Below, in pieces: positions 4,386 through 30,469 of a stretch of 30,469 nucleotides of DNA. The notes beneath the pieces were generated by a model. The model saw only the letters and a list, made by a program, of their open reading frames with translations. It had not been told where the DNA came from and did not search any database. Origin of the DNA: a virus; IMG/VR virus record IMGVR_UViG_3300042889_000113, positions 1-30,469 of that record. The stretch is one strand, 5' to 3'. The number at the start of each line of letters is the position of its first letter. Within the stretch, counting starts at the first letter, position 1. The translations under genes and the position numbers were made by a program.

Positions 4386-4414
4386 ATCCCCGGCTAATCA
4401 CTGGGGATTTTTTT
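4386..4414 (+). terminator. Rho-independent terminator ending the replication operon
   Basis: ATCCCC (4386-4391) and GGGGAT (4403-4408) form a six-pair stem around an 11-base loop, followed by a run of seven T on the + strand (4408-4414). The T run is on the + strand only, so it should stop rightward transcription from the replication genes. It sits at the convergence point and covers the stop codon of the leftward giant virion gene (4398-4400), so the same bases also encode that protein's last residues. Confidence 0.75.
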
Positions 4415-7400: not shown

Positions 7401-10400
7401 TTCAACCGCTGTCAGCCTTGTGCCAAGCATCTTGTCAGTGATGTCGACCAGATCAGAGAACGCAGTAGCATCACCCTGCTTAATACCAAACAAGTCACGG
7501 ATGCTGCTAACAAACGTAGAGAAGAGAGTTGGCTCTTTGCGCATGCCTTTTACACGCATCAAGAACTTTTGAAACGCGGGGCTAGACATGCCGTAAGCCA
7601 AGAACTCATGGGGGTTCTTAAATATTTCGTACCTATCTTCATTAGGAAGATAAGTTTTGCCGACCATGTCATTAACATCTTCGTCAAGCATGTCAAGGTA
7701 CGCCAAGTCTTTGTATTCTTGCTCAGCACGCTTCATTATGCCGTCCATCTCGCGCATAAACTTTTGAAGGCTAGCGTTTCTAAAACCTTTTAGTAGACCT
7801 GCTTCAATACGACTAGCCGTTGCTGCGTGTAGCAATTCGTGTAGCACTGTTACGTTATTTATGCCTTGTTGGTCTCCGAAGCTACTACCACGCACGTATA
7901 CAGTACGTTCTTTCTGGCCCGGCGTATAAACAAAAAGTCCACGCGCTTCTTTTAGCTCTTCAAGGATATTGGCCGGGGTTGCATCACCCTTCTCAACAAC
8001 CACAAACTTAACGCCAACCATAAAGTTACGGATGCGCTGCGCAACAAAACGCTGGAACAAGTTGCCAGTCTTAATGATTTGCGCAATTGCTTGTGAGCCG
8101 GTGGTCAGAGTGCTAAACCCCGCATCGGGCTTACCTACCTTGGCCTCAGATGAACGAAGTATTTTTGGAATATCTTTGGGGTCGACTTCATCCTCAAGCA
8201 TCTGCTTGGCACGCTCACGTACCGCTTTTGGTACGTTTTGGTCATTTGCGGCGTCGCTAATATACAACGCTGAATTCCTAGCCGCGCCATCATCCGCAGT
8301 TGAGTTGTACCTTTCAAGCGCCGACTCCAACGCATCCATCTCTTCGCGCTCATCTTTACTTAGTTCAACAGTGCCATCTTCTGCCTTTTCAGCGGCTGGT
8401 CGGCCTTTACCTTTTGAAGCAAGTGCCTTGTCAAGTTCAGCTTGGAACTTAGCAACTTTTACAGGATCGTTTTTATCTTGCGCTTTAGCCAGATTGACAG
8501 CCGCAGTTGCTTGCTTCTTGTTTGCGTACGTTGTGGCTACTTCGCCGTCTGTAACAAGATCAAACCCACCGCTAGAATTGCTTTCAACTACGTGCCTTTG
8601 CTGAACAAACTTGGGGCCTCGTTTACCCTTAGTTACTGTTCCGGCTGCTGGTGGCGCTTGTTCTTTTTGCGTTGTTTCGACGGCTTCAATGGTTTCAGTG
8701 CCAAGATCGGCTCCTTTAGTTTCAGTGGGTGGGTTGAGTCTGTTAAGTTCTTCGTCCGTTATCGTTACGGTTTTAGTATTTACTCTATCCCCGTTGTCAT
8801 CAACACCATCAGGGTGGTTACTTACATCGACTTCAAGTTTATAAAACGTTGGTTGCCCACGTTTTTCTTCTACATCAACTACTTTTGCAGGCGCTCCGGC
8901 AAAAGCTGATTGAACTACTTCCGCGCCGGGGTAAAAATACGTCCAAGGTTTACCATCCTGTGTGGTAACAAGCCTGTCCTTTGGTGTTTCTTCTACTGCG
9001 GCTGGTGCAACTACTTCTGCTGCCTGCTCAACGGGTGTTTCAGCGGGTGTTTCAACAGGTGTTAATGGAGTTTGCTGTGTTCCTTCTCCAACAATAGCTC
9101 CTGTAGCATCCTGTCCAGCAGGTACCACTCCACTTGTGACAGGCTCAGCAACTCCTCCGGTGGGGAGTTCTGTACTGGGCTGCCCAGCCACGCTAACGCT
9201 TTCTCCACTTGGAGTACTGATAAGTTCAGCAACATTTGCTGTTCCTCCTGTTTCGTTCTGCGCAAGCTCATCTGCTTGTACCTCCTCTTGAACCAATCTT
9301 TGTGCGTCTATTACTGCTTGTTGTGGATCAACACCAGCGGCAATTAAATCTTGTGTAATTTGTTCAACACGGCCTTCAGGTATTTTAATAGACGCAGTCT
9401 TAGCTTCGGCCTTTAACTCTGCATCAACTTTGCGTGTGGCAATACCCTCGGCATTTTCTGCGGGTATACCCTGCTGTATATTAAGTTCTGTAAGTGTGGC
9501 AATCCGCTCGGCGCGTACTTGTTCAGGCGTAGTTGCTGTTGTTTGCGTAGCAGGTGGAGGGGGAGGCGCTGCTTCTTTCTCGCCAAACAACTCAGAGCTT
9601 AAATCTTTGCCCTTAGTAACTTTAGTGGCGGTCTTAGCTTCTTTGCCGAATAGTTCAGAGCTTAGGTCTTTGCCTTTAGCGCCACGGTTACGCGCACCTG
9701 TAGCTACTTCAGCAAGGCCACCGGGGAGGTCTGCTAAACCTTCGACAATTATGTCTAAGGGTTTGTTCTCGCCTGTCAGTGCTTGACCGCCAGCCTCGCC
9801 AGCCATACCGGAGCCAACCTGAACACCAGCCTCTTTTGCGCCAGCCGTGATTGCCGCTTTGCGAGTTACACCAGTTCCCGCTGTTTTAAGTGCGCGAATA
9901 AACCGACCAGCAAAACCAGCCGACAACGCATCAAACGCAGCAACGGGAATGCCCCGCTTTACGCCGTACTCACGGGCTTCGGAAATAAATTTAGGGTCTT
10001 CTAAAAGCTTCTGGACAGCCGCTACGTTTGAGGTGTCTACTTTTCTTTTCTCTAACAGTTCACCAATTGCCGAGCCAAACTCAGTGGCAAATGAAGTTGC
10101 GCCAGAAGCAACTGCAAGACCGGGGGGCCCGGCGGCAATACCTGCGCCTACGATAACAGGCACAGTTTGTAAGGTAGCAACGGCAGACTCGCCAATCAGG
10201 GAAGCTAGAGCTTTCCAGTTTTTTGGCTTGATAACCTCTTTGGCTACATCACTAAAATTTCCAGTTTCGTTAACTTCTTGTAAGCGCTCCAACCCCGCAG
10301 CTACGTTGCCGGAGGGTTTAATTTGCTTCTGTCGGCGGGTTAAATCACTGATGTTCTCAGCATATTCTTTAGCGGTAATCGCCCCAGACTGAAAAGCTAG

Positions 10401-10562
10401 ATCTCTTCTTGTTCTTTCCGCCTGAAGCAAGCCACGCTTGCCTACATTTGCGACTTCATCAGTAGCTGATGATTCAGCAAACAAATCCGCGCTTAAATCC
10501 CGACCCTGTTGAGAAGGAGCCGGTGCGGGGAATAACTCAGCGCTTAAATCACGACCGGCCAT
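4398..10562 (-). CDS. Giant ejection-type virion protein with HELLH metallopeptidase motif (2054 aa)
   Basis: This is the last and largest gene of the leftward virion operon. The start at 10562 has GAGGTGAT upstream. In order: an N-terminal segment with four copies of G(R/K)DLS(A/S)(E/D)LF at about residues 3, 20, 297 and 318; a hydrophobic Gly/Ala stretch (119-170); a Pro/Thr/Glu/Ala-rich linker (330-530); and a zincin-type motif VLHELLH at 906-912 with E986 in NPHEFLAYG as candidate third ligand. Long charged helical regions follow (1080-1480), then FRRQFTHRKGRAG near 1410, and a C-terminal region with QFKTYPLQM (1694-1702), hydrophobic segments and a basic helical tail. Size and layout match large phage internal virion proteins injected with DNA, similar to DarB-like or PLxRFG-type polyproteins. 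The peptidase may cleave wall peptide bonds or host proteins; which is unknown. Confidence 0.75.
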   Translation of the reverse strand: MAGRDLSAELFPAPAPSQQGRDLSADLFAESSATDEVANVGKRGLLQAERTRRDLAFQSGAITAKEYAENISDLTRRQKQIKPSGNVAAGLERLQEVNETGNFSDVAKEVIKPKNWKALASLIGESAVATLQTVPVIVGAGIAAGPPGLAVASGATSFATEFGSAIGELLEKRKVDTSNVAAVQKLLEDPKFISEAREYGVKRGIPVAAFDALSAGFAGRFIRALKTAGTGVTRKAAITAGAKEAGVQVGSGMAGEAGGQALTGENKPLDIIVEGLADLPGGLAEVATGARNRGAKGKDLSSELFGKEAKTATKVTKGKDLSSELFGEKEAAPPPPPATQTTATTPEQVRAERIATLTELNIQQGIPAENAEGIATRKVDAELKAEAKTASIKIPEGRVEQITQDLIAAGVDPQQAVIDAQRLVQEEVQADELAQNETGGTANVAELISTPSGESVSVAGQPSTELPTGGVAEPVTSGVVPAGQDATGAIVGEGTQQTPLTPVETPAETPVEQAAEVVAPAAVEETPKDRLVTTQDGKPWTYFYPGAEVVQSAFAGAPAKVVDVEEKRGQPTFYKLEVDVSNHPDGVDDNGDRVNTKTVTITDEELNRLNPPTETKGADLGTETIEAVETTQKEQAPPAAGTVTKGKRGPKFVQQRHVVESNSSGGFDLVTDGEVATTYANKKQATAAVNLAKAQDKNDPVKVAKFQAELDKALASKGKGRPAAEKAEDGTVELSKDEREEMDALESALERYNSTADDGAARNSALYISDAANDQNVPKAVRERAKQMLEDEVDPKDIPKILRSSEAKVGKPDAGFSTLTTGSQAIAQIIKTGNLFQRFVAQRIRNFMVGVKFVVVEKGDATPANILEELKEARGLFVYTPGQKERTVYVRGSSFGDQQGINNVTVLHELLHAATASRIEAGLLKGFRNASLQKFMREMDGIMKRAEQEYKDLAYLDMLDEDVNDMVGKTYLPNEDRYEIFKNPHEFLAYGMSSPAFQKFLMRVKGMRKEPTLFSTFVSSIRDLFGIKQGDATAFSDLVDITDKMLGTRLTAVEMGRTSLQQKGKFTPPEFDEEADSKVKRSALQLAKDVKIAKEKVRLSNEGDAAKNVELMQLARDPKAVRQILANVTGDLGYTRLEATVRLPTFDFLAKWAADVGIPALNKANTQLQRMLGMSQQFLVGAERVIDSLNRGFKEDPKLSRKQFADFVYGTTLAEVDPSDTNTRIRSKQLDADYKALGSVGQRMYKQLRDYYESIIELYSDILDEQINNMQGMSPEEKKNLMAVLRKTFEAESRIKPFFPLVRRGDFFLAIGSGNSRQFYLFETRAERNEAAKQMAAERGKSLAELIADKEFVQGNDLKELRAASQDASAMLKEVFAAIDAKDMGSPESKEGLKDAVYQIYLTTMPEQSFRRQFTHRKGRAGFSTDLQRNIATTASKQSIQLARLKYAPQLRLALSEARGSIGEREELSPFVQEAEKRINMALSGAHGSLSESVAGVANKASYFWYLSSAASALIQPSSVFISGLPVLAGNYNNATGAATELAKMTTLVNQYSIYRPNPDGTTSISAPSIANNKSLPADERKAIGEMTSRGVSESTYASLVWGYKSMSTEQFEGVVGKGKRLANLMVGALMHNTERLSREAVYLAAYRLGKKQGLDYDTAVQKAVDSTNEALGNYDVTNRPRFMQQGIGKIAFQFKTYPLQMSLLLLTNFKNMLPYLNKEGKKEAATKFFGMMGTSFLLAGAANMALINPILGLAGWAWSQLSEDEDWPEELKGISFPTWFFEVLLPEKLGDITLGGVPVSDLIKEGPLNALTGLAIGSRIGLADLWGRDSKETKTSRESAIAFMLDHFGGPTASLLLGFADAYDAYAMGDYQKMLDRMLPAVARNLVVANRYADEGMKTGRGVELVGKDDVRTGELIGQAIGFRPDILASTQGPAFKLSGIEQKINNQRNLLLNKLDFQRRKDTDEGDEKFDDIIDTEVAKFNDKYPSYRLNRDTINESLKKRAEQRATSRAGVNVTKQNKPIIEEATDTLENRLDRRAEEMAAKRRAEKNPQ
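9582..9674 (-). repeat. Internal repeat encoding GKDLSSELFG (two copies; related pair at the N-terminus)
   Basis: Bases 9645-9674 and 9582-9611 both encode GKDLSSELFG inside the 2054-aa protein. Two diverged copies (GRDLSAELF, GRDLSADLF) are encoded at 10530-10556 and 10479-10505. The copies flank low-complexity linkers, which suggests a short docking peptide repeated along an extended N-terminal region. Confidence 0.7.
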
Positions 10563-10573
10563 AGATCACCTCT

Positions 10574-12169
10574 TTATTTGATAGTGTAGCCTTTGGCCTT
10601 TAATGCGTCTATGACTTCTTGCTCTGTTCTTCCACTTGATGTAACTGTGGCTCTAACGTCTGCCATAGATACTGCTTTACCTGTAGTAGTTGGCTTAGGT
10701 GCAGCGGCGGCAGGTGCTGCGCTTGATTTTGCGGAAGCTGCTGCTGGCGTTTGATACAACGTACGTAGTCTAGCTTCTTCCGCTGCCAATAGACGATCCA
10801 TTTCGGTTGTATTTTTAGCGCGTCTGGCTGATTTATACGCACGGTCGCCGTCTTTAAATTCTTGTAATTTATTTATAACGTCGGCATCAATAGCACGTAG
10901 TGTAGGTGCAAGTTTAGTTTCAGCGTTAACGGCTCCAATTTCGCCAGTAGAGAATGAGGTTTTAAGTGCGCGTGCTGTTTCATCGCTAGCCATTTTACGC
11001 ACTCGCGCATCAAACGCTTCAGGGGCTTCGTTTGGTTTTGGTTTTAACGTTGATTTAAAGTAATCTACATTGTTCTGAAGAATCTGCTCTTGATATTTAA
11101 GACCGCCAGCGCCTTTATTGGGGCGATTAACAGCCTTATATACATCAGCGTCTAGCCTAGCCAGAGCTTGAGCTTTATTTAACCTGAACCTATTGGCATC
11201 GTTCTTTTCTTTACGCGCAGTTTCGGCTGCAGCTTGAGCACCGCGAATGTCACCCATACGCTCTTTACGTTGCGCGTCGGCTAAAGAAAACTGCATGTTC
11301 TCAATAGACCGTTGTTCATTTATGTCGGCACGCTGTACTTCGCCCATTTGTTGTGCAAATACAGGGAATGCTTTTGATGCACCACGGGCCAAAGTGTTAC
11401 CTTCTAGGATAGCTCCAGCGGCGGCTAGTAAAGCCAAACCTTGCCCTTGACTTACGTTCTTACTCCGTGCGTCTTCTCGCTCTTTAAGCCGCCTATTAGC
11501 GGGTGCATAAATGTCAGGCCCAGCGTTCCTTTTAGCAAAATCAAGGGAATCCTGACGAATTTTATTGAATTCATCTTGGCTTAGACCTTCATCTTTCATA
11601 CCCATAAGCTCTGCGCGTGACTGTTGAACGTTTCTAGCCGCAAAAGCTCTTTGGTTGTCTGTGCCACCATCATATTCCATAAGATTACCTTCAGCATCAG
11701 TACGTCGGCCTTGTGCGTCAGAGTAGCCAGTATCTGAAGTTTCACGTTGATAGTCTTCTTCGGTTTCACCACCTAAATTAAACGCAACAATACCACCCTC
11801 GGCGTAATCTTCTTCAGGTGTGTACATACCAGCCAAACCGCCGGATGCTGCTTGCATAGTAGGCTGTGGCATTGGGGCACGTTGTTGTGGCATTTGACCT
11901 GCGGGGGCACCCATAGGCATCATTGCACCCAGACCCTGCTGCATGGGGTTCGGGGCTAAATTTTGAGCAACAATAGAAGGGGAGGAAGTTGGCTGTTGTG
12001 CTTGACCCGCCATGTCCATCATGTCGGCTTCTTTAACCAGACGCAGTGCATTTAACGCAGTGTAAGAGTCTAACTTGGGATCAGGGCTTTGACCCATTAC
12101 CGCAGCACGAAGCATGTCGGGTTGTTTTCTATACCGTGCGGCATAGACAGATGCCATATCAATTGCCAT
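10574..12169 (-). CDS. Putative internal virion / DNA-ejection protein (531 aa)
   Basis: The start at 12169 has AAGGAA five bases upstream. The N-terminus is helical; residues 55-108 are Met/Gln/Pro rich and probably disordered. A motif pair GGLAGM (110-115) and YAEGGIVAFNLGG (122-134) follows. The rest (140-450) is highly charged and predicted helical (many Glu/Arg/Lys/Ala), with an Ala/Thr/Ser-rich stretch near 470-500 and a compact C-terminus (VSMADVRATV...VIDALKAKGYTIK) that could be a small DNA- or protein-binding fold. It lies between the 330-aa and 2054-aa proteins with gaps of 9 and 11 bases. Helix-rich, low-complexity proteins in this position are typical of podovirus ejection cores (T7 gp14-16, P22 gp7/16/20). 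I see no direct homology. Confidence 0.6.
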   Translation of the reverse strand: MAIDMASVYAARYRKQPDMLRAAVMGQSPDPKLDSYTALNALRLVKEADMMDMAGQAQQPTSSPSIVAQNLAPNPMQQGLGAMMPMGAPAGQMPQQRAPMPQPTMQAASGGLAGMYTPEEDYAEGGIVAFNLGGETEEDYQRETSDTGYSDAQGRRTDAEGNLMEYDGGTDNQRAFAARNVQQSRAELMGMKDEGLSQDEFNKIRQDSLDFAKRNAGPDIYAPANRRLKEREDARSKNVSQGQGLALLAAAGAILEGNTLARGASKAFPVFAQQMGEVQRADINEQRSIENMQFSLADAQRKERMGDIRGAQAAAETARKEKNDANRFRLNKAQALARLDADVYKAVNRPNKGAGGLKYQEQILQNNVDYFKSTLKPKPNEAPEAFDARVRKMASDETARALKTSFSTGEIGAVNAETKLAPTLRAIDADVINKLQEFKDGDRAYKSARRAKNTTEMDRLLAAEEARLRTLYQTPAAASAKSSAAPAAAAPKPTTTGKAVSMADVRATVTSSGRTEQEVIDALKAKGYTIK

Positions 12170-12178
12170 GATATTTCC

Positions 12179-13171
12179 TTAGACCAAGTTGTTCAAAGCA
12201 AGTGCGCCGAGACCGCCGCCGCTAGACATAGCCACACCACCGTTAGCCATAAGTTTACTAATACCAGCCGCGCCGAGACCCAACGATGTAATATTCTGCA
12301 TAGTTGAAGGGGGAGCTTGATAGATAGACGAGCCAGTCTGTGTCAATGGTACACCACGAATAATGTCTGACATGAACGACAGATTCTTGTATGGGTAGTT
12401 TTGTGCATTGAGGTAGTCTTGATACTTATTGTTTATGTCGCCCTGCATCTGTTGCTGTTGTTGCAAGCCGTACTGGTTCTGCATCTGGTTGATGCCCATG
12501 TTCTGCTGGTACTGGGTGTTGCCCAACTGCCCCAGAGTATTCGCCATCGAACCGGCTGTTTGCAGACCCTGTAAACCTAAACCCGCACCAAACTGACTTT
12601 GCTGGGCATTCAACTGGTTCTGGGCGTTGAACTGTTGCATTGCTTGGTTGTACGCATTGTTTAGTCCTTGAGACTGAATATCATTCATCTGCATACCAAG
12701 ATTGCGCTCGCGCTCGGCTCGCATGATTGCGTCTCTACCGCCACCAAAAGCACCGGCTTTAGTAGCTTGGCCTTGTTGCTGAGTACCTGCAATATCTGAC
12801 TGGCGCTGAGCTTCACGCTTTTGAATATCCACTACGTTCTGCATGTAGGGGTTCATTAATGCTTGCGCATTGGCAGAAGTGAAGTTAGCTGGGTTAAATG
12901 TGTACTGTGTGTTAAGAGCGCCAAGTCCTGCTAACCCAGCCATAGACGTAGCATCCCCCAACTGAGGGGCTGTTTGCATTAACGCAGCGTTATTAAAAGA
13001 CTGCTGTTGTAAAGGAGAGAACTGTGCTTGACGCTCCCCCTGATACTGCATGTAGGGGTTGTATTCTACGTCTGTAAGCGCTTTTGCTTGACCTAGTAGG
13101 TCTTGTGCGTATGGTGCGACTTCCGGCGCGAAGCCGTAGTTTGTTTGCGTAATTTGTGTTGGGGTAGCCAT
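12179..13171 (-). CDS. Gln-rich putative DNA-ejection/internal virion protein (330 aa)
   Basis: The start at 13171 has AAGGAA upstream, and the stop is 9 bases before the next start. Residues 1-110 are Pro/Gln/Asn/Ala rich with NPYMQ repeated at 38 and 107. Residues 112-165 form a charged helix with a Gly cluster (AGAFGGGRDAI, 139-149), a motif I associate with phage proteins of this type. Residues 165-255 are extremely Gln/Asn rich. The C-terminus has a Gly/Leu hydrophobic segment and ends with LMANGGVAMSSGGG (307-320), matching motifs in both flanking genes. Gln/Ala-rich helical proteins here probably form part of the ejected core, but no enzymatic motif is visible. Confidence 0.6.
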   Translation of the reverse strand: MATPTQITQTNYGFAPEVAPYAQDLLGQAKALTDVEYNPYMQYQGERQAQFSPLQQQSFNNAALMQTAPQLGDATSMAGLAGLGALNTQYTFNPANFTSANAQALMNPYMQNVVDIQKREAQRQSDIAGTQQQGQATKAGAFGGGRDAIMRAERERNLGMQMNDIQSQGLNNAYNQAMQQFNAQNQLNAQQSQFGAGLGLQGLQTAGSMANTLGQLGNTQYQQNMGINQMQNQYGLQQQQQMQGDINNKYQDYLNAQNYPYKNLSFMSDIIRGVPLTQTGSSIYQAPPSTMQNITSLGLGAAGISKLMANGGVAMSSGGGLGALALNNLV

Positions 13172-13180
13172 GTCTATTCC

Positions 13181-16102
13181 TTATGCGGGAAGATATTTTG
13201 CAGCACGGGTGTTTTTAGCCACTTTGCCCTTGCCAATTGAGCCTCGGCGGGCGGCTTGCACCCTGTCCATCATTGCGTATAACTTACGAGCACCAGCTTC
13301 AGTTGAGCCGTTGCCTAGTTCAGACACAATGCGTGCAGGTACTACAAATTCACCGTCGGCTAAACGTGCGGGACGCTTGTTACCAATCGTTGCAGGGATG
13401 GAATCAGACACGCCATCACCGGGGCCACGCAATAAACGACCGCCGTCAGAGTAACCACCTAAGTCAAACTGAGACATACCACCACGGGCCATAGCCATCA
13501 GACCACCACCTGCAACAACTTGCGCACCTTTTTCGTCAAACTTAGTACCACCGGATGAGTAGTAAAAACCATCATCGCGCAGGTAAGCTTGCTCCGTATT
13601 TCCCTGAGCGTCAAGAACATTAATAGACTTACCAGCAGCCGCATCGGTCTTAGTTGTTTCTTTACCCGCCGCAGCTTTTTCAGCCGCCAACACATACGGG
13701 GGTTTTACGTAAGCAGGGTTAAGTTCGTACTTGCCGTCTTTAAAGATGTATTTCTTGGTAGCCAAATTAACTGGGGCTTTGCCGACAGACTCAAAATACG
13801 GTTTTTGAATCTCACCAGTGGGGGTGTAAGGGGTTGGAGAGTAAGGGGTCTTGCCCATCAAATAGTCATACGCGGCTTTAGAACCACCTGATAACTTATT
13901 AAAGCTAGTGTTGAATTCATCAATTGTTTTTGGCGCAGTGGGTGTGTACCCTAAGCTACCGCCACCAGCAGTGTAGGCGCTTTTAAGTGCGTCGATACCA
14001 GTAAATCCGCCATATGGACGACCGGGAATATTAGGCGTCATTGTGCGAGACATGTCTGGGTTTGTAATGATGTCGCCGGGCGTAGCAATAGAGACTGTAT
14101 TGCCCAAATAATCTTTGCCAGTTTTGTTTCCAGAACCATAGTTGCCAAACGCGCCGTTGTCGTATGTTGTGGCAGTGTCTAATTTTTCATCACCGGGTAC
14201 AACACCTGTAGGTGCGCCCCAATTGCGCCCTTCTTTTTCGCCATAGCGTTTGTAGTGTGTGTATGCAATGTCTTTGACATCAAATTCTGGGTGTTTTTTA
14301 ATGTACTCTTGACCTTGCGCAGAAGTTATCCACCGAGCAACATCAGGGTTGTCTTTAATATATTGTGTGGCAGCAGAGAGGTCTTTGTCTGCTACTTGGA
14401 AACCGTGCGCCAACACCTGCTGGGCATCGCCAATGTCCATACTAGATGCTTTGAGCGCTGCGTCAATATCAGTTTGCGTTGCGTTGGGGTTGTCTTTTAA
14501 CCACTTTGCAGTGTTGTCGGCCATAGCTGACAAGCCCTTACCCTGTTGTATATAGTAACGCTCTGAGCCAGATATTTTTCCGCTTTCTACCAAAGCACCT
14601 AAAGCGCGGTCAACATCACCTTTGCTCATGCCAGAGCCTGTTATCGCAGCATTAATTTGCTCTGTGGTTGCAAATGGGTTTGCATCAATCCATTTTTGAG
14701 TGTTTTCCGCTATGTCCGTTTTGTTTGCCGTAGCGTATTTAACAGCGGCGGAGGGCTCAAATTCACGGCCTTCTTTTTGGCCAAAGTTAGTGAAGTGCGC
14801 TTGCGCAAACGCTTCTGGTGTCAAACCCAGAGGGTTTCGTGTGTACTCAGCAGCTACGTCGGGATTGACTTGGAAGTAGTAAGGGGTCGCGGCTGCGGCA
14901 TTTAGAGCTGGAAGTCCTCCACCAGTATTAACACCACTATCAGCGTTTCCTAGAGTTCGCCCCTCTGTCTGACCAAACTTATCGTAGTGCGTTTGCGCAA
15001 ACTGATCTTGCGTCATACCGTAGTTGTTGTTTGCAAAAGCGTCGGCAACATCTTTGTTTTGCGCAAAATAATTAACTCCCAAGCCAGCAGCTCCAGCCGT
15101 ATCAAAGCCTTTCCAAGTATTACCTACATCGGCTTCGCTAATTTTGTTCTGCGCAATTAAATCATTAACTTTGTTGTAATCTCCTGCCCCATACGCTTCT
15201 TCAAGTGCTAATTTAGTATCGCCACCAATGGCGTATCTAGCAATACCACCATCAGCCATACCAACAACGGGGCCTCCGCTTCGTGCAAAGTTAAATCGCT
15301 CGTTGGCCATACCCATCAAACCACCTCCCGCTGCTTTAGTAGGCACAGTCTCATAGGGGGTACCGGCAGTATATGTACCGCCATAAGGGTCAAAAGAATA
15401 TGGGCGAATCATGCCGGGTTTGGTAACCGTTGTAGGCATGTTAGATTTAATTGCTTGGTCGGCAAGGATTGGGCCAGCGGCAGCGGCTAAGTATTTAAAG
15501 TTATCTTTGTTTGCAAATCGCATTGGGTTTTCAGCAACAGATTTCGCACCCGCAGACAGTTTGTCAAAGGGAGACGCCGCAGCTACTCGCTCTGCCGCCT
15601 GTTGTTGGAGAGCTTGATTAGCAGCAGCTACATTACTTTGGATGCCTGCTTCTGAGACACCCGCATCTGCTAAGTTAAACGCCATGTCACCGGTAAGTCC
15701 AGCCCCAGCCCCAGCAGCTTGACTACCAAGCGCCGACGTACCTGCAGCGGTTAATCCTTGGGTTATACCAGCACCACCATAAGCACCAAGACCTGCGGCT
15801 AGACCTTTACCTAGATCGCCGGTACGAACAGTTTGAACGCCGCCAACAATGCCAGCAGCCATCATAGGATTGATTGCACCGCCGGAGAAAAAGGTCAAGC
15901 CCGCACCAATAATAGTCGGCAACAACTTATCTAAGAAGCCAGCTTCGGGTAAACCCGTATCGGGGTTGATTGTTAGTGAGCCGCCATTTTTCATGGCCAA
16001 AGCCTGTAGCCCCTGCACTTCACGTGGGGACATATGGATAAGCATCGAGTCAGGGCCGCGACCCTTTGATGCCATGTGGTCGGCGATAGCTGCAAGGCTC
16101 AT
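13181..16102 (-). CDS. Large putative virion/ejection protein with NPDVA-type repeats (973 aa)
   Basis: The start at 16102 has GAGAGG upstream. Residues 20-56 (HMSPREVQGLQAL...) are a conserved-looking head, followed by a Gly/Ala-rich hydrophobic region (60-140) that could insert in a membrane. Three copies of a 38-48-residue module with YF/YI..N.DVA and HY/HF..FGQ.EGR occur at 345-382, 409-447 and 580-627. A second repeat, N..KW...NP.AT...I.AA, occurs at about 467-502 and 530-565. GG motifs GGGLMGMA (259-266) and GGGLMAMARGG (865-875) bracket the body. The C-terminal domain (890-950) has GPGDGVSDSIPATI, LADGEFVVPA and GNGSTEAGARKLYAMMDRV, a signature I recognise from other phage virion proteins. 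Role inferred: a component injected with, or forming the channel for, DNA. Confidence 0.65.
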   Translation of the reverse strand: MSLAAIADHMASKGRGPDSMLIHMSPREVQGLQALAMKNGGSLTINPDTGLPEAGFLDKLLPTIIGAGLTFFSGGAINPMMAAGIVGGVQTVRTGDLGKGLAAGLGAYGGAGITQGLTAAGTSALGSQAAGAGAGLTGDMAFNLADAGVSEAGIQSNVAAANQALQQQAAERVAAASPFDKLSAGAKSVAENPMRFANKDNFKYLAAAAGPILADQAIKSNMPTTVTKPGMIRPYSFDPYGGTYTAGTPYETVPTKAAGGGLMGMANERFNFARSGGPVVGMADGGIARYAIGGDTKLALEEAYGAGDYNKVNDLIAQNKISEADVGNTWKGFDTAGAAGLGVNYFAQNKDVADAFANNNYGMTQDQFAQTHYDKFGQTEGRTLGNADSGVNTGGGLPALNAAAATPYYFQVNPDVAAEYTRNPLGLTPEAFAQAHFTNFGQKEGREFEPSAAVKYATANKTDIAENTQKWIDANPFATTEQINAAITGSGMSKGDVDRALGALVESGKISGSERYYIQQGKGLSAMADNTAKWLKDNPNATQTDIDAALKASSMDIGDAQQVLAHGFQVADKDLSAATQYIKDNPDVARWITSAQGQEYIKKHPEFDVKDIAYTHYKRYGEKEGRNWGAPTGVVPGDEKLDTATTYDNGAFGNYGSGNKTGKDYLGNTVSIATPGDIITNPDMSRTMTPNIPGRPYGGFTGIDALKSAYTAGGGSLGYTPTAPKTIDEFNTSFNKLSGGSKAAYDYLMGKTPYSPTPYTPTGEIQKPYFESVGKAPVNLATKKYIFKDGKYELNPAYVKPPYVLAAEKAAAGKETTKTDAAAGKSINVLDAQGNTEQAYLRDDGFYYSSGGTKFDEKGAQVVAGGGLMAMARGGMSQFDLGGYSDGGRLLRGPGDGVSDSIPATIGNKRPARLADGEFVVPARIVSELGNGSTEAGARKLYAMMDRVQAARRGSIGKGKVAKNTRAAKYLPA
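14222..15070 (-). repeat. Three degenerate protein modules (N-D-V-A ... G-x-x-E-G-R) in the 973-aa gene
   Basis: Coding repeats at 14957-15070, 14762-14878 and 14222-14365. Each has (Q/D)N(K/P)DVA near the start, then TH/AH(Y/F) and (F/Y)G(Q/E).EGR at the end. Between copies two and three lies a different pair of about 36 residues. They are diverged at DNA level, so they look like an old protein-domain duplication rather than a recent tandem repeat. Confidence 0.7.
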
Positions 16103-25651: not shown

Positions 25652-26086
25652 TTAATATGAACTGCGGATCAGCGCTGTTGTTGACGTATTGGCAGGCATT
25701 GTGATCGTGAAGTTGGATGACGTTTTGTCACTTCCAAAGTCTAACACCGCAATAGAGGGCTTGCCTACTACTGAGTCGTTATAGATCAATGCGCACCGTG
25801 CCGTAATTGTGCCAGTCCACGAGACGTTTGGGAAGCCCACATACGCTGTTGCATCAGATAAAGAGGACGAAACAGTTACCGGCGTTAGGATCGCTCCACC
25901 CGGTGAGTACGGTGCTGCGCCCGATGTTGCTGATACTTCGTTTAAACTCGAATACGCTGTGGTATCCGCATTCAGGTTGGCGTTCGCCGTGTACAAGGCA
26001 ATCTTGATAACGTCTGTGGTAAGCGCATGTATACCTTGGTACAACTCCGCTTTGAAACTTGTGGTTTGGGTCTGAACTATGCTCAT
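25652..26086 (-). CDS. Tail-region structural protein (144 aa)
   Basis: The ATG at 26086 overlaps the stop of the upstream adaptor gene as ATGA. Features: KAELYQGIHALTTDVIKIALYTANANLNADTTAYSS near the start, PYSPGGAILTPV, then ALIYNDSV and VLDFGSDKTSSNFTITMP near the end. I recognise this pattern (IALYT..A.L...T.AY....E, followed by LDFG.DK.S) as a recurrent small protein beside phage fibre and connector genes. It is probably a beta-sandwich virion or fibre-attachment protein. No catalytic residues are visible. Confidence 0.7.
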   Translation of the reverse strand: MSIVQTQTTSFKAELYQGIHALTTDVIKIALYTANANLNADTTAYSSLNEVSATSGAAPYSPGGAILTPVTVSSSLSDATAYVGFPNVSWTGTITARCALIYNDSVVGKPSIAVLDFGSDKTSSNFTITMPANTSTTALIRSSY

Positions 26087-26745
26087 TGCGGTGTGACCCT
26101 TGATTCAAAGCGGTAGGTATCTGTTTGCTGTTTGCCATCGCCCAAGTTCTTCAAGAGTGCCAATGCTTCCATATACTTTTGATTGTACAAAGCGGTCAAA
26201 TCTTGCTCACCCTTCATGTAGGTGTTAGCTTCAACCAGTGTCCCATACAACAGCACAGAGCTAAAGTTAGTACTCAGCCATGTAGTAGTCGCAGTAACAA
26301 TTGACTCAGGCATGATGAAATAACTAAGGTCTGTTACGAATGCAGCACTAGGGGTAGGCCCAAGAATAAACTGCAACGTAGTTACAGGCGAAGATGGGCC
26401 GTTGATTGCGTAGTACTTTGGAACCCCAGTAGTAGCTGGATTAGGGTACGCCTCTTGCATGAACGCGGGGTCTTTGTTAAGCAAGTAAACGTAGTTCCCA
26501 CTGCCATCAACTACAGCAAACGAATACACAGCCAAAAAGTCTGTGGGCGCATTAAACGTTTCCACATTTGGTGTTAGCGCTGTAGTCGATGTTTTACGTA
26601 AATTGGGTAGCGACACTGAGTTATAGATGCGCTGCTCCGCCTGCTGAATCATGGTGTTCATGTCAGTCGTGTCGAAGGTGTTCTGCGTGTAATCAGATAC
26701 CGCAGTCACCAATTGGGAGTAAGTCAGCGCACCTAGTGTTGCCAT
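26083..26745 (-). CDS. Putative head-tail adaptor protein (220 aa)
   Basis: The start at 26745 has TGAGG upstream. The N-terminus (YSQLVTAVSDYTQNTFDTTDMNTMIQQAEQRIYNSV...LPNLRK) resembles SU10-type phage adaptor proteins, with a helical DYTQN...AE.RIYN segment followed by beta strands (TFNAPTDFLAVYSF, PKYYAINGP) and a C-terminal helical hairpin (YMKGEQDLTALYNQKYMEALALLKNLG). Adaptors form a ring below the portal and above the nozzle. The neighbouring 230-aa protein is a second candidate connector, so both head-completion rings may be here. Confidence 0.65.
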   Translation of the reverse strand: MATLGALTYSQLVTAVSDYTQNTFDTTDMNTMIQQAEQRIYNSVSLPNLRKTSTTALTPNVETFNAPTDFLAVYSFAVVDGSGNYVYLLNKDPAFMQEAYPNPATTGVPKYYAINGPSSPVTTLQFILGPTPSAAFVTDLSYFIMPESIVTATTTWLSTNFSSVLLYGTLVEANTYMKGEQDLTALYNQKYMEALALLKNLGDGKQQTDTYRFESRVTPQ

Positions 26746-26752
26746 ATAAACC

Positions 26753-27025
26753 TCAAGCCATAGGGCCGCGAGACATCACGCCTTTGGTAGCGCACCCAGT
26801 ACCGCGCATCTTAATACCGCTGGTTTTAGGCTGCTCTCTGCCTTGTGAGTTGTTGTACATGCCAACACTCATGCGCGGCTGCATAGCTGCCAAACTTTCA
26901 AGGCCAGAATCTTTACCGGGGTTGGAAGAGATTGGCATTTTTTTGCCGGTCATGGTGTGAGGCTCCGCATAAACGTCGGCGTCACCAACTTCTTTACCCA
27001 TTATCTTTTTGCTGTATGTAGCCAT
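26753..27025 (-). CDS. Small basic phage protein with RGTGCATKG C-terminal motif (90 aa)
   Basis: I choose the ATG at 27025 (MATYSKKIMGKEVGDADVYAEPHTM) because GGAGG lies five bases upstream. Positively charged and probably disordered: PISSNPGKDSGLESLAAMQ, SVGMYNNSQ, then GIKMRGTGCATKGVMSRGPMA at the end. The terminal G-x-A-T-K-G matches motifs in other small proteins of this arm. It overlaps or abuts the 61-aa gene upstream. No function is known to me; with connector genes on both sides, an auxiliary virion role is likely. Confidence 0.6.
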   Translation of the reverse strand: MATYSKKIMGKEVGDADVYAEPHTMTGKKMPISSNPGKDSGLESLAAMQPRMSVGMYNNSQGREQPKTSGIKMRGTGCATKGVMSRGPMA

Positions 27026-27026
27026 A

Positions 27027-27212
27027 TTAGCCTCCACTTTGGTTGTTTACGCGTGCCATGTTGCGACCGACTTTCATCATCGCTTCGCTTTTCACGCCAG
27101 ATGCTTTTTTGCCGCCCTTATCAGTGCCTTTTGTAGGGCCGCTGTTTGCCATAACTTGCACATTGGTTTTACCCTTTTTTGCAACGCCGTCGGCTGATTT
27201 TGTGTATGCCAT
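27027..27212 (-). CDS. Small basic phage protein with ADGVAKKGKT motif (61 aa)
   Basis: The start at 27212 has AGGAG upstream. The protein begins MAYTKSADGVAKKGKTNVQ, then NSGPTKGTDKGGKKASGVK and EAMMKVGRNMARVNNQ. It is strongly basic, without hydrophobic segments. The N-terminal ADGVAKKGKT is the same motif that ends its neighbours. VGRN.AR..NQ is a phrase I associate with small phage proteins of this kind. The stop is two bases before the next start. Confidence 0.6.
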   Translation of the reverse strand: MAYTKSADGVAKKGKTNVQVMANSGPTKGTDKGGKKASGVKSEAMMKVGRNMARVNNQSGG

Positions 27213-27222
27213 GATTAGCTCC

Positions 27223-27606
27223 TTAAGATATGGTTACTGTACCAACAATTGCCCTAGAAACCAAGTAGTTTGGTGTTAGAACTGTATCAAAACTGCTGGC
27301 ACCACCAACTGGATTCCAGCCCCATTGAATATCTCGACTACCGCCTGTTAAATTGCCAGATGTGTTAACACCTGCAGTCACATACGTTGTGTCCCTACGC
27401 GGGTTGCGTACAGCTTGTGGGTCGTCTACTGGGTACATACCCAACTGCAACTGCGGCTGATCGGGATCCCAACAAGCGTTACACACAAGCAAATCGTACG
27501 TCTTGGTCTTAATGATTTCTTTGCGCAAAACAGTTAATTTGAACCTAAAGCCGCAGCGATCGCACATGGCGATACTGTTCTTACCGGATGCAAAACGATT
27601 GCCCAT
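27223..27606 (-). CDS. Zinc-knuckle protein with two CxxC pairs (127 aa)
   Basis: The start at 27606 lacks a strong Shine-Dalgarno. Residues 15-18 (CDRC) and 42-45 (CNAC) give two CxxC pairs separated by a basic beta-hairpin region (FRFKLTVLRKEIIKTKTYDLLVC), a zinc-ribbon layout. The segment DPDQPQLQLGMYPVDDPQAVRNPRRD that follows is a highly conserved-looking stretch I recall from phage genomes beside connector genes. The C-terminal part is Gly/Asn/Thr/Val rich and probably beta. The basic ribbon suggests nucleic-acid or protein binding in virion assembly. Function is unassigned. Confidence 0.7.
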   Translation of the reverse strand: MGNRFASGKNSIAMCDRCGFRFKLTVLRKEIIKTKTYDLLVCNACWDPDQPQLQLGMYPVDDPQAVRNPRRDTTYVTAGVNTSGNLTGGSRDIQWGWNPVGGASSFDTVLTPNYLVSRAIVGTVTIS

Positions 27607-27616
27607 TTACGTACCA

Positions 27617-28309
27617 CTAGCTTATAAACATCTGGCGCGGCACAAAACGTACAGCCGCCTTTTCACGATCTTCCGTGGACGCTAACTCCCAAGCCTCATC
27701 ATACTGCTGTTTTAGTACGGGTAAACGCTCGGCCCCATTGGGAACCTTTAAGGCTAAGTAATACGCCAAGCCCGCTACCATGCAGGGCAAGAACCGGAAC
27801 GGGACATCCATTGTGTTTACACCAGTCCCTGCGTCGTCAATACGGCGCAAACGCCAGTACACAAACGTATAGGTCTGCGAGTTGTCTGGAACGGGCCAAA
27901 CGGTAATCGTGGGGATTTCCTGACGGCGCTCAATCCACACTTGAATAGGACGGGCTTGCTGCAACTTGTTTGGGATCGTTGCGTAAGTAGAAACACTAAT
28001 ACGCGTAATGGTCAAGTCCGCTTGTGTTGATGCGTTTCCCGCACCTGTGCGAATCACATGTTCAATCAAGTCTACTGTATCTGCAGGTAGGTTGTATGTA
28101 GCGGTACCGGGAACGAGGGGGATCGTCCCTTGCTCAAACGTCCACATGTTCAAACCACGGTTAGCCCAGTCTGCAAACAAAAGGTTTAAAGACCTACGCG
28201 CAGTGCGCAAGTCGTAGCCTGTGCGCATCTCAGAACCAGCACGCTCAAACGCTTCCTCAACGATCTCCGTGAGGTCAAGATTAAATGCAGTGGTTCCTGA
28301 GATGGCCAT
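27617..28309 (-). CDS. Putative head-tail connector / tail tubular-type protein (230 aa)
   Basis: The ATG at 28309 overlaps the upstream TAA by one base. The N-terminal motif (LTEIVEEAFERAGSEMRTGYDLRTARRSLNLLFADWANRG) with NMWTFEQGTIPLVPGTATYNLP is the signature of a widespread class of short-tailed-phage connector proteins (T7 gp11/P22 gp4-like role). The middle is beta-rich (WIERRQEIPTITVWPVPDN), the end helical with LPVLKQQYDEAWELASTEDREK. Together with the 220-aa adaptor it would form the rings linking portal to tail. The family is recognised by pattern only. Confidence 0.65.
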   Translation of the reverse strand: MAISGTTAFNLDLTEIVEEAFERAGSEMRTGYDLRTARRSLNLLFADWANRGLNMWTFEQGTIPLVPGTATYNLPADTVDLIEHVIRTGAGNASTQADLTITRISVSTYATIPNKLQQARPIQVWIERRQEIPTITVWPVPDNSQTYTFVYWRLRRIDDAGTGVNTMDVPFRFLPCMVAGLAYYLALKVPNGAERLPVLKQQYDEAWELASTEDREKAAVRFVPRQMFIS

Positions 28310-28542
28310 TATCTAAATCCTGCTGTTTTCTTTGCTATCGTTTTTGGTTGCGCTACGAATTGTTTTCCGGCTTTTTTGCCAGCACGTTTAGCTTTAGTAG
28401 TTGCAGCGTACTCACTAGGGCTAAGACTCTTAATCGCAGCTTCTGGAAGGTACCGCTCACCTGTTTTACTAGACGGCTTTCCACTCTTGGTACGCCATTT
28501 CTGGTCGCCCCAATCTTTAAGGGATTGCTGCGGCGCTTTCAT
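28309..28542 (-). CDS. Small basic protein, QSLKDWGDQKWRTKSGK type (77 aa); candidate C-terminal half of a split protein
   Basis: I choose the ATG at 28542 (MKAPQQSLKDWGDQKWRTK), just beyond the upstream stop (TAG at 28546-28544); a GTG at 28563 is possible but would overlap that gene. The sequence is rich in Lys and Ser: KWRTKSGKPSSKTGERYLP, AIKSLSPSEYAATTKAKRAGKK and KQFVAQPKTIAKKTAGFR. This WRTKSGK ... ERYLP ... SPSEYAATT ... AKR series is a recurrent small basic phage protein. It reads like the second half of a bacterial protein whose first half resembles the preceding gene (28544-28831). It is probably nucleic-acid associated or a virion accessory; function is not known. Confidence 0.65.
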   Translation of the reverse strand: MKAPQQSLKDWGDQKWRTKSGKPSSKTGERYLPEAAIKSLSPSEYAATTKAKRAGKKAGKQFVAQPKTIAKKTAGFR

Positions 28543-28543
28543 A

Positions 28544-28831
28544 CTAGTCTTTGTACCCACCACCTGCGGCTTTATACCGTTTAGCCATGACCTGCGCTTT
28601 ACGCGCTGACCACTGACCCGCGCCAGTACCTACGATGGCAGCAGCTTTAACGCTGTTGAAAATCCGTTTACGTAAACCGGGCTTGGTATAGTTACCAGCT
28701 TCGTTCACTTTAGATTTTACTGCCCCACCCTCTTTGTACTGGGTAAAGTCAGTGTCATCCCTTCGGGCAGTCTTCTTACCCTTGGGCATCTTAGAGGGGG
28801 AGATGTCTCCCATACCACGGCTAGCCATCAT
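28544..28831 (-). CDS. Small basic protein, GQWSARKAQ type (95 aa); candidate N-terminal half of a split protein
   Basis: The start at 28831 overlaps the upstream stop as ATGA; a second ATG at 28828 is equally possible. MASRGMGDISPSKMPKGKKTARR is a basic head; QYKEGGAVKSKVNEAGNYTKPGLRKRIFNSVK leads to GTGAGQWSARKAQVMAKRYKAAGGGYKD at the end. The KPGLRKR ... GQWSARKAQ ... GGGYK core is one I recall in bacterial proteins (DUF5872-like), where it is followed by a second domain like that of the next gene. It carries a KEGG motif (G-G at residues 36-37), matching others in this arm. Confidence 0.65.
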   Translation of the reverse strand: MMASRGMGDISPSKMPKGKKTARRDDTDFTQYKEGGAVKSKVNEAGNYTKPGLRKRIFNSVKAAAIVGTGAGQWSARKAQVMAKRYKAAGGGYKD

Positions 28832-28905
28832 ACGAATTTACCCCGCGTTTTGCCTTTGGTGCAGCAGCCATCAGCACGACTAGAAACAGAGCCACCTTTA
28901 GCTTT
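28828..28905 (-). repeat. Duplicated C-terminal tail (copy A)
   Basis: This codes the last 25 residues of the 90-aa protein (AKGGSVSSRADG.., KGKTRGKFV). It matches copy B (29104-29181) at protein level, and the DNA is also similar (for example CCATCAGCACG...CTAGAA in both). Confidence 0.7.
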
Positions 28906-29100
28906 TTTGCTTACGGATGCGCCGTCAACGTCTTGCGGTACAGGCATGCCTTCACGAAAGACTGAATCTTTAGGCGCAGTCTTCTTAGGGGCTGGAGTCT
29001 TGGGCGCTGGCTTTTTAGCCGCTGGCTTTTTAGAAGCCGGTGCGCCTTCGGGATCCATGGGCGGTTGCCCCATTTCAGCAGTGTAGACTGGATCGGCCAT
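28828..29100 (-). CDS. H1-like Lys/Pro/Ala-rich protein with SSRADGCCTKGKTRG tail (90 aa)
   Basis: The start at 29100 is four bases from the upstream stop; there is no strong Shine-Dalgarno. An acidic start (MADPVYTAEMGQPPMDPEG) is followed by Lys/Pro/Ala repeats (KKPAAKKPAPKTPAPKK), a short linker (SVFREGMPVPQDVDG) and the tail KAKGGSVSSRADGCCTKGKTRGKFV. The tail is nearly identical to that of the next gene upstream. The composition resembles histone H1 tails, so nucleic-acid condensation or capsid packaging is possible. Confidence 0.6.
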   Translation of the reverse strand: MADPVYTAEMGQPPMDPEGAPASKKPAAKKPAPKTPAPKKTAPKDSVFREGMPVPQDVDGASVSKKAKGGSVSSRADGCCTKGKTRGKFV

Positions 29101-29103
29101 GGC

Positions 29104-29181
29104 TTAGCACATCTTCCCGCGAGTCTTACCTTTGGTGGCAATACCATCAGCACGGCTAGAAGCGGAGCCGCCATTTTTCAT
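29104..29181 (-). repeat. Duplicated C-terminal tail (copy B)
   Basis: This codes the last 25 residues of the 139-aa protein (KNGGSASSRADG.., KGKTRGKMC) and is the partner of copy A at 28828-28905. Both lie at the gene 3' end, so the tail, not the whole gene, looks like the unit that was copied or conserved. Confidence 0.7.
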
Positions 29182-29523
29182 ACCAAAAGCGGAGCGTAGG
29201 CGCTGGCTAACTGAACGTGTATCAGTTGTGCTACCAGACTTAGCGCGATCACGGCTCATCTTCATGCGCTCAGACAAAGACATTTTGGTCTCGTCAACAG
29301 GGGCTGCTTTAGCGGCGGGTTTAGACTCAGACTTAGCAGCGGGCTTAGCAGCGGCTTTAGGTTTGGGGGCAGCTTTAGGCGTAGCTTTTGCCGTTTCGGA
29401 AGTACCAGAATCGCCAAACTCTTTAGCGTTGGGGTTTGACAACATACCCTCTGTGCTTTTGTTTGCTGCTTCTTCGGCATCCATTTCAACCGCACTACCA
29501 TTTTCACCGTTATAACGTTTCAT
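29104..29523 (-). CDS. Lys/Ala-rich protein with SSRADGIATKGKTRGK tail (139 aa)
   Basis: The start at 29523 has AAGGAG upstream. MKRYNGENGSAVEMDAEEAANKS is a short acidic head, followed by an Ala/Lys/Pro-rich linker (about residues 49-75), a charged segment (KMSLSERMKMSRDRAKSGS) and the end SVSQRLRSAFGMKNGGSASSRADGIATKGKTRGKMC. The tail matches the downstream 28828-29100 gene, an evident duplication. It is probably disordered and basic. Virion or assembly accessory is the simplest reading. Function is not known. Confidence 0.6.
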   Translation of the reverse strand: MKRYNGENGSAVEMDAEEAANKSTEGMLSNPNAKEFGDSGTSETAKATPKAAPKPKAAAKPAAKSESKPAAKAAPVDETKMSLSERMKMSRDRAKSGSTTDTRSVSQRLRSAFGMKNGGSASSRADGIATKGKTRGKMC

Positions 29524-29533
29524 GTTTAGCTCC

Positions 29534-30052
29534 TTAGCAGGCTTTGCCGCCCATTTTCATCTTGACCATTGTGCCTTTGGTTTTACCCTTAGACGCAACA
29601 CCATTTGGTGTTTTACCGGTTTTTACAGCACTCATCTTAGACGGGGCCATGCCACCGTTTTTCATGCCAGCATGAGCCTTAGACGCTGATGCAGAAGCAT
29701 GCGCTTTTAGGGAAGAGGATATGCCGCCGTTTTTCATTGCGCCTTTACCGTCACCAATAAAAGCGGGTTTACCGTCTTTCATAGGCATGCCGCCATTAGC
29801 CATTTTCTTTGTAGCCATAGTATCACCACCTTTTTTCATTAATGACATCTTCCCATGAAGTGTCTTAGGTTTATTAACTTTTTGAAGGTCGGGACGGGCT
29901 GCATTTGAACCCTTACCAAACTTCATGCCCTTGCTCTTCTCACTAAACTCTTTTGCAACCCCTACGGGGATATTAGCTTGTTTTGCAAACGCTGGGTTAT
30001 TGGCCGCAGCATCCATAAATTTCTTTTGTTTTTCACTTACTGCTGGCATCAT
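29534..30052 (-). CDS. DUF3008-like N-terminus with Met/Lys/Gly-rich 'GG' repeats (172 aa)
   Basis: The start at 30052 overlaps the upstream stop as ATGA. Residues 1-45 (MMPAVSEKQKKFMDAAANNPAFAK..., PVGVAKEFSEKSKGMKFG) resemble the short DUF3008-type proteins found in phages and bacteria. The rest is low complexity: MKKGG, KKMANGGMPM, GAMKNGGISSS, AGMKNGGMAPSKMS, then GVASKGKTKGTMVKMKMGGKAC. It thus carries at least five GG motifs and the KGKT(R/K)G tag shared with other proteins of this arm. Likely disordered and basic. Confidence 0.65.
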   Translation of the reverse strand: MMPAVSEKQKKFMDAAANNPAFAKQANIPVGVAKEFSEKSKGMKFGKGSNAARPDLQKVNKPKTLHGKMSLMKKGGDTMATKKMANGGMPMKDGKPAFIGDGKGAMKNGGISSSLKAHASASASKAHAGMKNGGMAPSKMSAVKTGKTPNGVASKGKTKGTMVKMKMGGKAC

Positions 30053-30291
30053 CGCCCCGCTTGAATAAGCTGGTCAATTTTTGCTTCCAGCCTGTTAAAA
30101 CGTTGGTCAATGTGGTCAGTAATTCTTTGCACTTCTGCGTTAGTCGTGTAATCACGGGCTATCTCCTCACGGGTTTTGTTGAGCAGAATATCAAGGCGTT
30201 TGAGTTCATTAAACTTTTCCTTGGCGACGAAGGTCAGCAGCCCCGTAAACAGGGTTAACGCTGCTGTCCAGATAGTGTTGATGTCTAGCAT
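30049..30291 (-). CDS. Small membrane protein with coiled coil (80 aa)
   Basis: The ATG at 30291 overlaps the stop of the upstream gene (TAG 30287-30285). One transmembrane segment (IWTAALTLFTGLLTFVAKEKF, about residues 6-25) is followed by a charged helix (ELKRLDILLNKTREEIARDYTTNAEVQRITDHIDQRFNRLEAKIDQLIQ). This TM-plus-coil layout resembles small phage accessory membrane proteins such as holin- or Rz-like ones; its place beside head/connector genes, away from the lysis cassette, is unusual. Function is not known. Confidence 0.55.
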   Translation of the reverse strand: MLDINTIWTAALTLFTGLLTFVAKEKFNELKRLDILLNKTREEIARDYTTNAEVQRITDHIDQRFNRLEAKIDQLIQAGR

Positions 30292-30469
30292 TTCCACGCC
30301 CTAAGTGACTTGTTGATGCGTGAGTCTGGGTCTTTGGCGGTCTTTGGGGATGTCAGCTTCTTTTTCATCCCTTCCATCCTCGCACAGAAAGAGTCGCGCC
30401 GGGAGCCTCCTTCTGGCTGGGGCGGTTTCAAATTCATACCTTGCGCTTTGGCGGAGGCTCGTCCCTTGG
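30285..30469 (-). CDS. Partial small basic protein, PEGGSRRDSFCARM type (5' end beyond window)
   Basis: A frame on the - strand runs from the right edge to TAG at 30287-30285. Visible residues: KGRASAKAQGMNLKPPQPE, GGSRRDSFCARM, KKKLTSPKTAKDPDSRINKSLRAWKC. The GG-SRR-SFCARM ... SRIN(K)(S/A)LR-W-C pattern is one I recall in many phage genomes (DUF6321-like). A Met at 30437 could be a start, but AAGG is too close (one base), so the real start is probably outside. The last seven bases overlap the start of the next gene. Confidence 0.6.
   Translation of the reverse strand, partial: KGRASAKAQGMNLKPPQPEGGSRRDSFCARMEGMKKKLTSPKTAKDPDSRINKSLRAWKC

Follow-up and report, generated by a model that had tools for sequence, protein, structure and literature searches.

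The stretch analysed here is a fragment of 30,469 bases from an IMG/VR virus record (IMGVR_UViG_3300042889_000113, positions 1 to 30,469), referred to below as the window. The right-hand 4 kb of its minus strand holds a run of small genes, with their neighbours, that share a short peptide motif of about 16 residues, here called the tag. The tag has the consensus RADG[IVC][AC]x[KR]GKT[KR]G and stands at or near the end of three of these genes. Comparison with related viral loci demonstrated that it is a true module on otherwise unrelated small proteins, that it is real and very common in a group of abundant freshwater bacterial viruses, and that a second group, probably marine, carries a sister version. 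A six-frame search of the window found four strong copies, all inside genes that an earlier note on this DNA had named. The motif-bearing genes and their motifs are listed below, with lengths in amino acids (aa) and model confidence as predicted local distance difference test (pLDDT).

29534..30052 (−): tagged gene, 172 aa, with an N-terminal three-helix domain (PHROG 16759), a disordered middle and the tag (profile match and structure prediction)
29537..29605 (−): long-type tag NGVASKGKTKGTMVKMKMGGKAC, C-terminus of the 172-aa gene (motif search)
29104..29523 (−): tagged gene, 139 aa, body predicted mostly disordered, mean pLDDT 60 (structure prediction)
29107..29166 (−): C-terminal tag SASSRADGIATKGKTRGKMC of the 139-aa gene (motif search)
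28828..29100 (−): tagged gene, 90 aa, Lys/Pro/Ala-rich body (MADPVYTAEMGQPPMDPEGAP...), no family match
28831..28890 (−): C-terminal tag SVSSRADGCCTKGKTRGKFV of the 90-aa gene (motif search)
27165..27194 (−): N-terminal motif form ADGVAKKGKT in the 61-aa gene 27027-27212 (motif search)
26756..26806 (−): divergent C-terminal motif RGTGCATKGVMSRGPMA of the 94-aa gene 26753-27037 (conserved in orthologues)

The six-frame matches at the C-termini of the 90-aa and 139-aa proteins were RADGCCTKGKTRGKFV and RADGIATKGKTRGKMC, respectively. Structure prediction gave the 172-aa protein a small N-terminal helical domain, with disorder elsewhere. The earlier note had counted five small genes with the motif, and this held for the four strong copies; the fifth gene, 26753-27037(−), which starts at GTG 27037 or at ATG 27025, carries a divergent form only. 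Because its tag-like part is just GCATKG, embedded in the different motif RGTGCATKGVMSRGPMA, this C-terminal motif is probably at best a distant relative of the tag. Orthologues of the 94-aa gene, which lie beside an adaptor gene, strongly conserve the C-terminal motif RG[TN]G[AC]ATKGxxxRGP[MQ][AG]. The 61-aa gene (27027-27212, minus strand) has a second conserved motif, GRNMAR[VA]NNQ, at its C-terminus; a gene of the relative L151 (7817-8008) shares this motif, yet is without the N-terminal tag.

Chance was excluded as the source of the motif, because 100 first-order Markov resamples of the window gave 0 matches and residue-shuffled sets of the four proteins gave an expected 0.0004 matches per set against the 4 observed. 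Across 1.35 Mb of related loci, which overlap one another so that motif counts are not independent, the motif occurred 282 times in sense open reading frames and 6 times in antisense frames. A lack of enrichment in related genomes had been named beforehand as a finding that would speak against a shared tag; the motif proved strongly enriched there.

Two scans fetched the loci of relatives, and the later, wider set comprised 533 distinct DNA copies of the motif on 530 unique proteins. With the tag masked, these proteins fell into 134 body clusters, 92 of which were singletons. The tag lay at most 4 aa from the C-terminus in 332 of the 530 proteins and at the N-terminus in 23; in the first set of relatives, 140 of 282 copies ended exactly 4 aa past the motif. 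The earlier note's view that the motif, not the gene, is retained was thus borne out by more than 130 body clusters that carry it, and its description of the motif as mostly terminal agrees with the C-terminal position in most carriers. An alignment of 55 unrelated representatives had no invariant columns other than Met1 and the tag.

These figures bear on the possibility that the tagged genes are ordinary duplication paralogues in which the C-terminus is merely the best conserved part. Some bodies are indeed real families with a common N-terminal domain, the largest component being 227 proteins. We nevertheless consider paralogy very improbable, given the 134 body clusters with their 92 singletons, the 55 representatives that have nothing but the tag in common, and a body type, that of the DUF6321 orthologues, that occurs both with and without the tag. 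Full-length paralogy, which the earlier note had named as a finding that would refute its reading, was checked and not found, only the tag columns being common to the 55 representatives.

The spacing Gly-x4-Gly-Lys-Thr was fixed among the relatives' copies, and the Thr and both Gly were invariant in all 533 copies of the wider set. This GxxxxGKT string fits the Walker-A signature in nearly all copies, but a nucleotide-binding P-loop is barely credible. The Lys is replaced in 10 of 533 copies, by the natural variants GHT (7) and GRT (3), and GKS never occurs; the tag is terminal, unstructured in low-confidence models and without a surrounding P-loop fold, and neither the window genes nor the 55 representatives matched a P-loop NTPase family. 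The same string, together with the Lys/Arg-rich composition of tag and bodies, could instead point to a phosphate-binding peptide with affinity for DNA or RNA, which would coat or condense the genome once packaged, with the bodies accessory. This is unlikely: an unspecific basic peptide would need neither the invariant Thr and two Gly nor a fixed C-terminal distance and a tie to a single family of major capsid protein (MCP), which is described below.

The tagged bodies are basic, with a median isoelectric point (pI) of 9.6, and rich in disorder-prone residues. The 55 representatives had no family match in PHROG or PADLOC at the thresholds used, and their sole match in Pfam was a weak one to Nnf1 (E=0.009). 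Nine of the 530 tagged bodies start with a glycine-rich hydrophobic helix, for example LAGLAALGALGYMLSKG, that could insert in a membrane; examples are L203:1180-1935, L274:7522-7944 and L332:13082-13993.

Related proteins differ in whether they carry the tag and in which form. DUF6321 orthologues in relatives end either in ...RAWNC or in ...SLRAWNC followed by KDGGYVTAADGCATKGKTKGRMV and similar sequences, with an identical junction; the window's copy lacks the tag. Short tags (ending RGKMC or similar) and long tags (ending GTMVKMxxGGxxC) occurred together in 13 body clusters, one of them the window's 90-aa family, whose orthologues have either type. Synonymous positions of the tag vary near the genome background, with a bias resembling that of the MCP gene, indicating that the conserved entity is the peptide and no element of DNA or RNA; a DNA-level element, such as a recombination site or terminator, was ruled out on the same grounds. 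When different tagged genes were compared, the codon identity of the tag was 0.49 inside one genome and 0.46 across genomes. This small excess indicates that the tags are old, which rules out recent copying or gene conversion and runs counter to the earlier suggestion that the motif had been copied. The bodies of tagged orthologues gave a ratio of nonsynonymous to synonymous substitution (dN/dS) of 0.165 in pairs preselected at 60-97% identity. A value of about 0.17 indicates working proteins while they last and, with that preselection as a caveat, weakens the notion that the bodies are neutral spacers. Though under purifying selection, the bodies differ between relatives.

Read on the minus strand, the right-hand end of the window starts with the untagged DUF6321 gene, cut by the edge, followed by an 82-aa gene and the tagged genes of 172, 139 and 90 aa. 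Genes of 95 and 84 aa separate these from an SU10-type adaptor, behind which come a gene of 127 aa, the 61-aa carrier of the N-terminal motif, the 94-aa carrier of the divergent motif and another adaptor. The bordering genes are:

30285..30469 (−): DUF6321 gene, running off the right edge, ends ...SLRAWKC untagged (sequence comparison)
27617..28309 (−): SU10-type adaptor gene, downstream border of the tagged-gene cluster (profile match)
26083..26745 (−): second SU10-type adaptor gene (profile match), the query used to fetch relatives

The 30,469-base window has no recognised gene for MCP, portal or terminase, and a tRNA search of it found none. Relatives have the order terminase, portal, GroES-like gene, putative scaffold, two genes of unknown function and MCP, followed by decoration-type genes, DUF6321, the tagged genes and the adaptors; the labels scaffold and decoration were assigned solely by gene position. 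In 111 distinct loci with both genes, the gap between MCP and adaptor (median 3.7 kb) held 246 of 258 tag copies, which places the motif in the head/connector module, a location that the earlier note had proposed to check. The 12 copies outside the gap belong mostly to the N-terminal 61-aa family. On 28 large contigs the copies clustered within a few kilobases, with weak outliers rare; one 74-kb contig has a second tag group near its opposite end.

This position, directly after MCP and the decoration-type genes and before the adaptors, would also suit a tag that anchors proteins outside the head or at the head-tail vertex, as decoration, cement or connector components, and a capsid surface is a possible binding site for proteins that are small, basic and disordered. 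We regard such anchoring as rather unlikely: the bodies change freely, whereas a decoration layer would be expected to retain a folded body, and the candidate decoration genes right after MCP are untagged.

The tie to MCP shows in loci picked by the tag alone, 83 in number and including four from bacterial or archaeal genomes. One MCP family was present in 42 of them. All but one of the 41 loci without it have less than 3.2 kb of upstream DNA, and the remaining one, L167 (4.5 kb upstream, no MCP there), has MCP elsewhere on its contig. Among contigs selected by MCP with at least 5 kb downstream, 30 of 34 carried the tag; three of the four exceptions have divergent tags (KGHT twice, GGGIESKGKT once), leaving L333 as the single true absence. 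MCP was the best-conserved head protein in the tag-selected loci, with a median identity of 85% against 61% for portal and 38% for the scaffold. It matches the capsid families PF25209 and PF10124, and its gene adjoins the tagged genes. The four bacterial or archaeal loci (L160-L163) were the only tag loci confirmed among 84,980 such genomes; at least L161 lies on a Chitinophagales contig from a metagenome-assembled genome that also has the phage MCP.

Among cultured phages with more distantly related MCPs, Planktothrix phage Pag-Yong1 has an MCP 71% identical and a tag with GRT, its gene UMO75986.1 ending RDGCAKRGRTKGRFI, and Pelagibacter phage HTVC023P has an MCP 64% identical and the marine tag. 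Searches of cultured phages by tblastn with the tag and two tagged window genes, which are too short or diverged, returned nothing, and no relative of MCP or of the tag was found in the PDB. HMO-2011, considered as the phage type on account of a shared 84-aa gene, was ruled out by its different, P22-like coat and its lack of the tag.

A pattern scan derived from the terminal motif of HTVC023P gp51 retrieved the sister tag, RGGGAAxRGxxFKG[VI]x-COOH, on 78 proteins from 73 contigs. It was strictly C-terminal in 78 of 78, ending two residues past FKG, with a scan pattern that required no stop. The sister-tagged proteins comprised 50 unique sequences in 18 body clusters (L367-L446). These contigs are probably marine, judging by the cultured relative and by the usual provenance of such sequences. 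The MCP family of the freshwater tag, at 60-78% identity, was present in 8 of 13 sister-tag IMG/VR contigs tested, and in the five without it the tag lies within about 5 kb of the contig end. One marine contig bears the sister tag on a protein that shares 55% identity with the window's 172-aa protein over the N-terminal domain. Common to both tags is G-x-A-x-[KR]-G-x2-3-[KR]-G close to a hydrophobic C-terminus, and from sequence comparison we infer that the two are homologous.

A real tag, its modularity, terminal position, genome location and protein-level conservation, and its tie to one MCP family are direct observations. A short terminal peptide that stays the same while the bodies change implies a partner that is constant too, expected in every carrier and conserved to the same degree as the tag. 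Of the head proteins that were compared, MCP alone fits; the putative scaffold, being poorly conserved, fits badly. With confidence that stands about midway, we read the tag as a mostly C-terminal targeting tag that would dock accessory proteins on a conserved head surface, most plausibly the interior of the MCP shell. The carriers would form a small set of accessory proteins that changes quickly, its members basic, mostly disordered and encoded between MCP and the head-tail adaptor genes in a podovirus-like phage group. During assembly the tag would dock them onto the inside of the MCP shell, and they would be built into the procapsid as internal head proteins, exchangeable provided the label is kept. 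MCP would then be the partner, the tagged proteins would be in the virion, and they might be delivered along with the DNA, so that any of them could enter the host.

Several observations weigh against this reading. The cultured phages HTVC027P, DSL-LC04 and CRP-902 and the Alcaligenes and Caulobacter phages, with MCPs 40-64% identical, have no tag, and the co-occurrence of tag and MCP could arise from vertical inheritance alone in one phage group. One family, encoded beyond the MCP-adaptor gap, has the motif at the N-terminus. Single-protein models leave the tag unstructured, with a pLDDT of about 50, and no tagged body among the 55 representatives matched a known effector in PHROG, PADLOC or Pfam. 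A different account would make the tag a signal that acts outside the virion, on the host membrane, the nucleoid, protease processing or the phage assembly site. The few bodies that begin with hydrophobic glycine-rich helices would accord with this; we give it little credence, since it leaves the MCP-family tie and the MCP-adjacent position unexplained.

Internal capsid targeting by a short label has precedents. T4 internal proteins bear a capsid-targeting sequence (CTS) on divergent bodies (PMC9026906). As with the CTS of IPI, IPII and IPIII, the tag is a short segment common to several divergent small head-region proteins with variable bodies. The T4 CTS, however, is N-terminal and 10 aa long, shows core affinity and is removed by the gp21 protease, whereas the tag has another sequence and is mostly C-terminal (332 of 530, against 23 N-terminal), unlike an N-terminal propeptide. 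Conservation of only 38% in the putative scaffold makes T4-like core binding less likely. Encapsulins, with HK97-fold shells, use C-terminal cargo-loading peptides (PMC8346489). These too are short, C-terminal and placed on unrelated proteins, and their partner is the HK97-fold shell; no sequence similarity to the tag was recognised. The shell here would be a phage MCP, the cargo is small, basic and disordered rather than folded enzymes, and many different cargos occur per phage group; terminase, portal and tail genes are present, unlike in an encapsulin nanocompartment.

The scaffolding protein of P22 docks on coat through a basic C-terminal helix-turn-helix and can carry fused cargo into the shell. 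Both this segment and the tag are basic and terminal; the tag is without a predicted helix, and the scaffold gene does not carry it. DUF6321 (PF19846), a 72-residue domain, is C-terminal in several PHROG families with different bodies and may therefore itself be a terminal module in this gene cluster. Its sequence differs from the tag, which can be added behind it.

Neither the tag nor its marine sister was described in the literature searched, and none of the sequence libraries searched has the tag as a family. Short capsid-targeting labels are a known kind of device; what appears to be new is the present label, together with its C-terminal placement, the range of its cargo and the capsid lineage involved. 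A label on more than 100 body clusters flags "dark" phage proteins that otherwise defy annotation and probably belong to the virion, and it provides a sequence rule for finding such proteins in metagenomes. Should its role be capsid loading, the tag would offer a compact encapsidation peptide specific to an abundant capsid lineage of the environment, and listing the tagged genes would make cell-delivered phage proteins a testable question. More tentatively, and as something less likely than not, it may belong to a dedicated phage cargo-loading code in which one peptide, in freshwater and marine versions that one widespread capsid lineage recognises, loads swappable, fast-evolving small proteins into virions for host delivery; accessory proteins would then be swapped freely as long as they are labelled.

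Other repeated motifs occur elsewhere on the minus strand of the window. A 2054-aa protein (4398-10562) contains G[KR]DLS[AS][DE]LF four times in its N-terminal part, and 10574-16102 encodes three large proteins with repeated motifs of the [YM]A[DEN]GG[IV] type. One of these three, of 973 aa, has a terminal PGDGVSDSIPATIGNKRPARLADGEFVVPARIVSELGNG domain, and the relatives L152 and L158 have proteins with a C-terminal end (AxKYLPA) similar to that of this protein.

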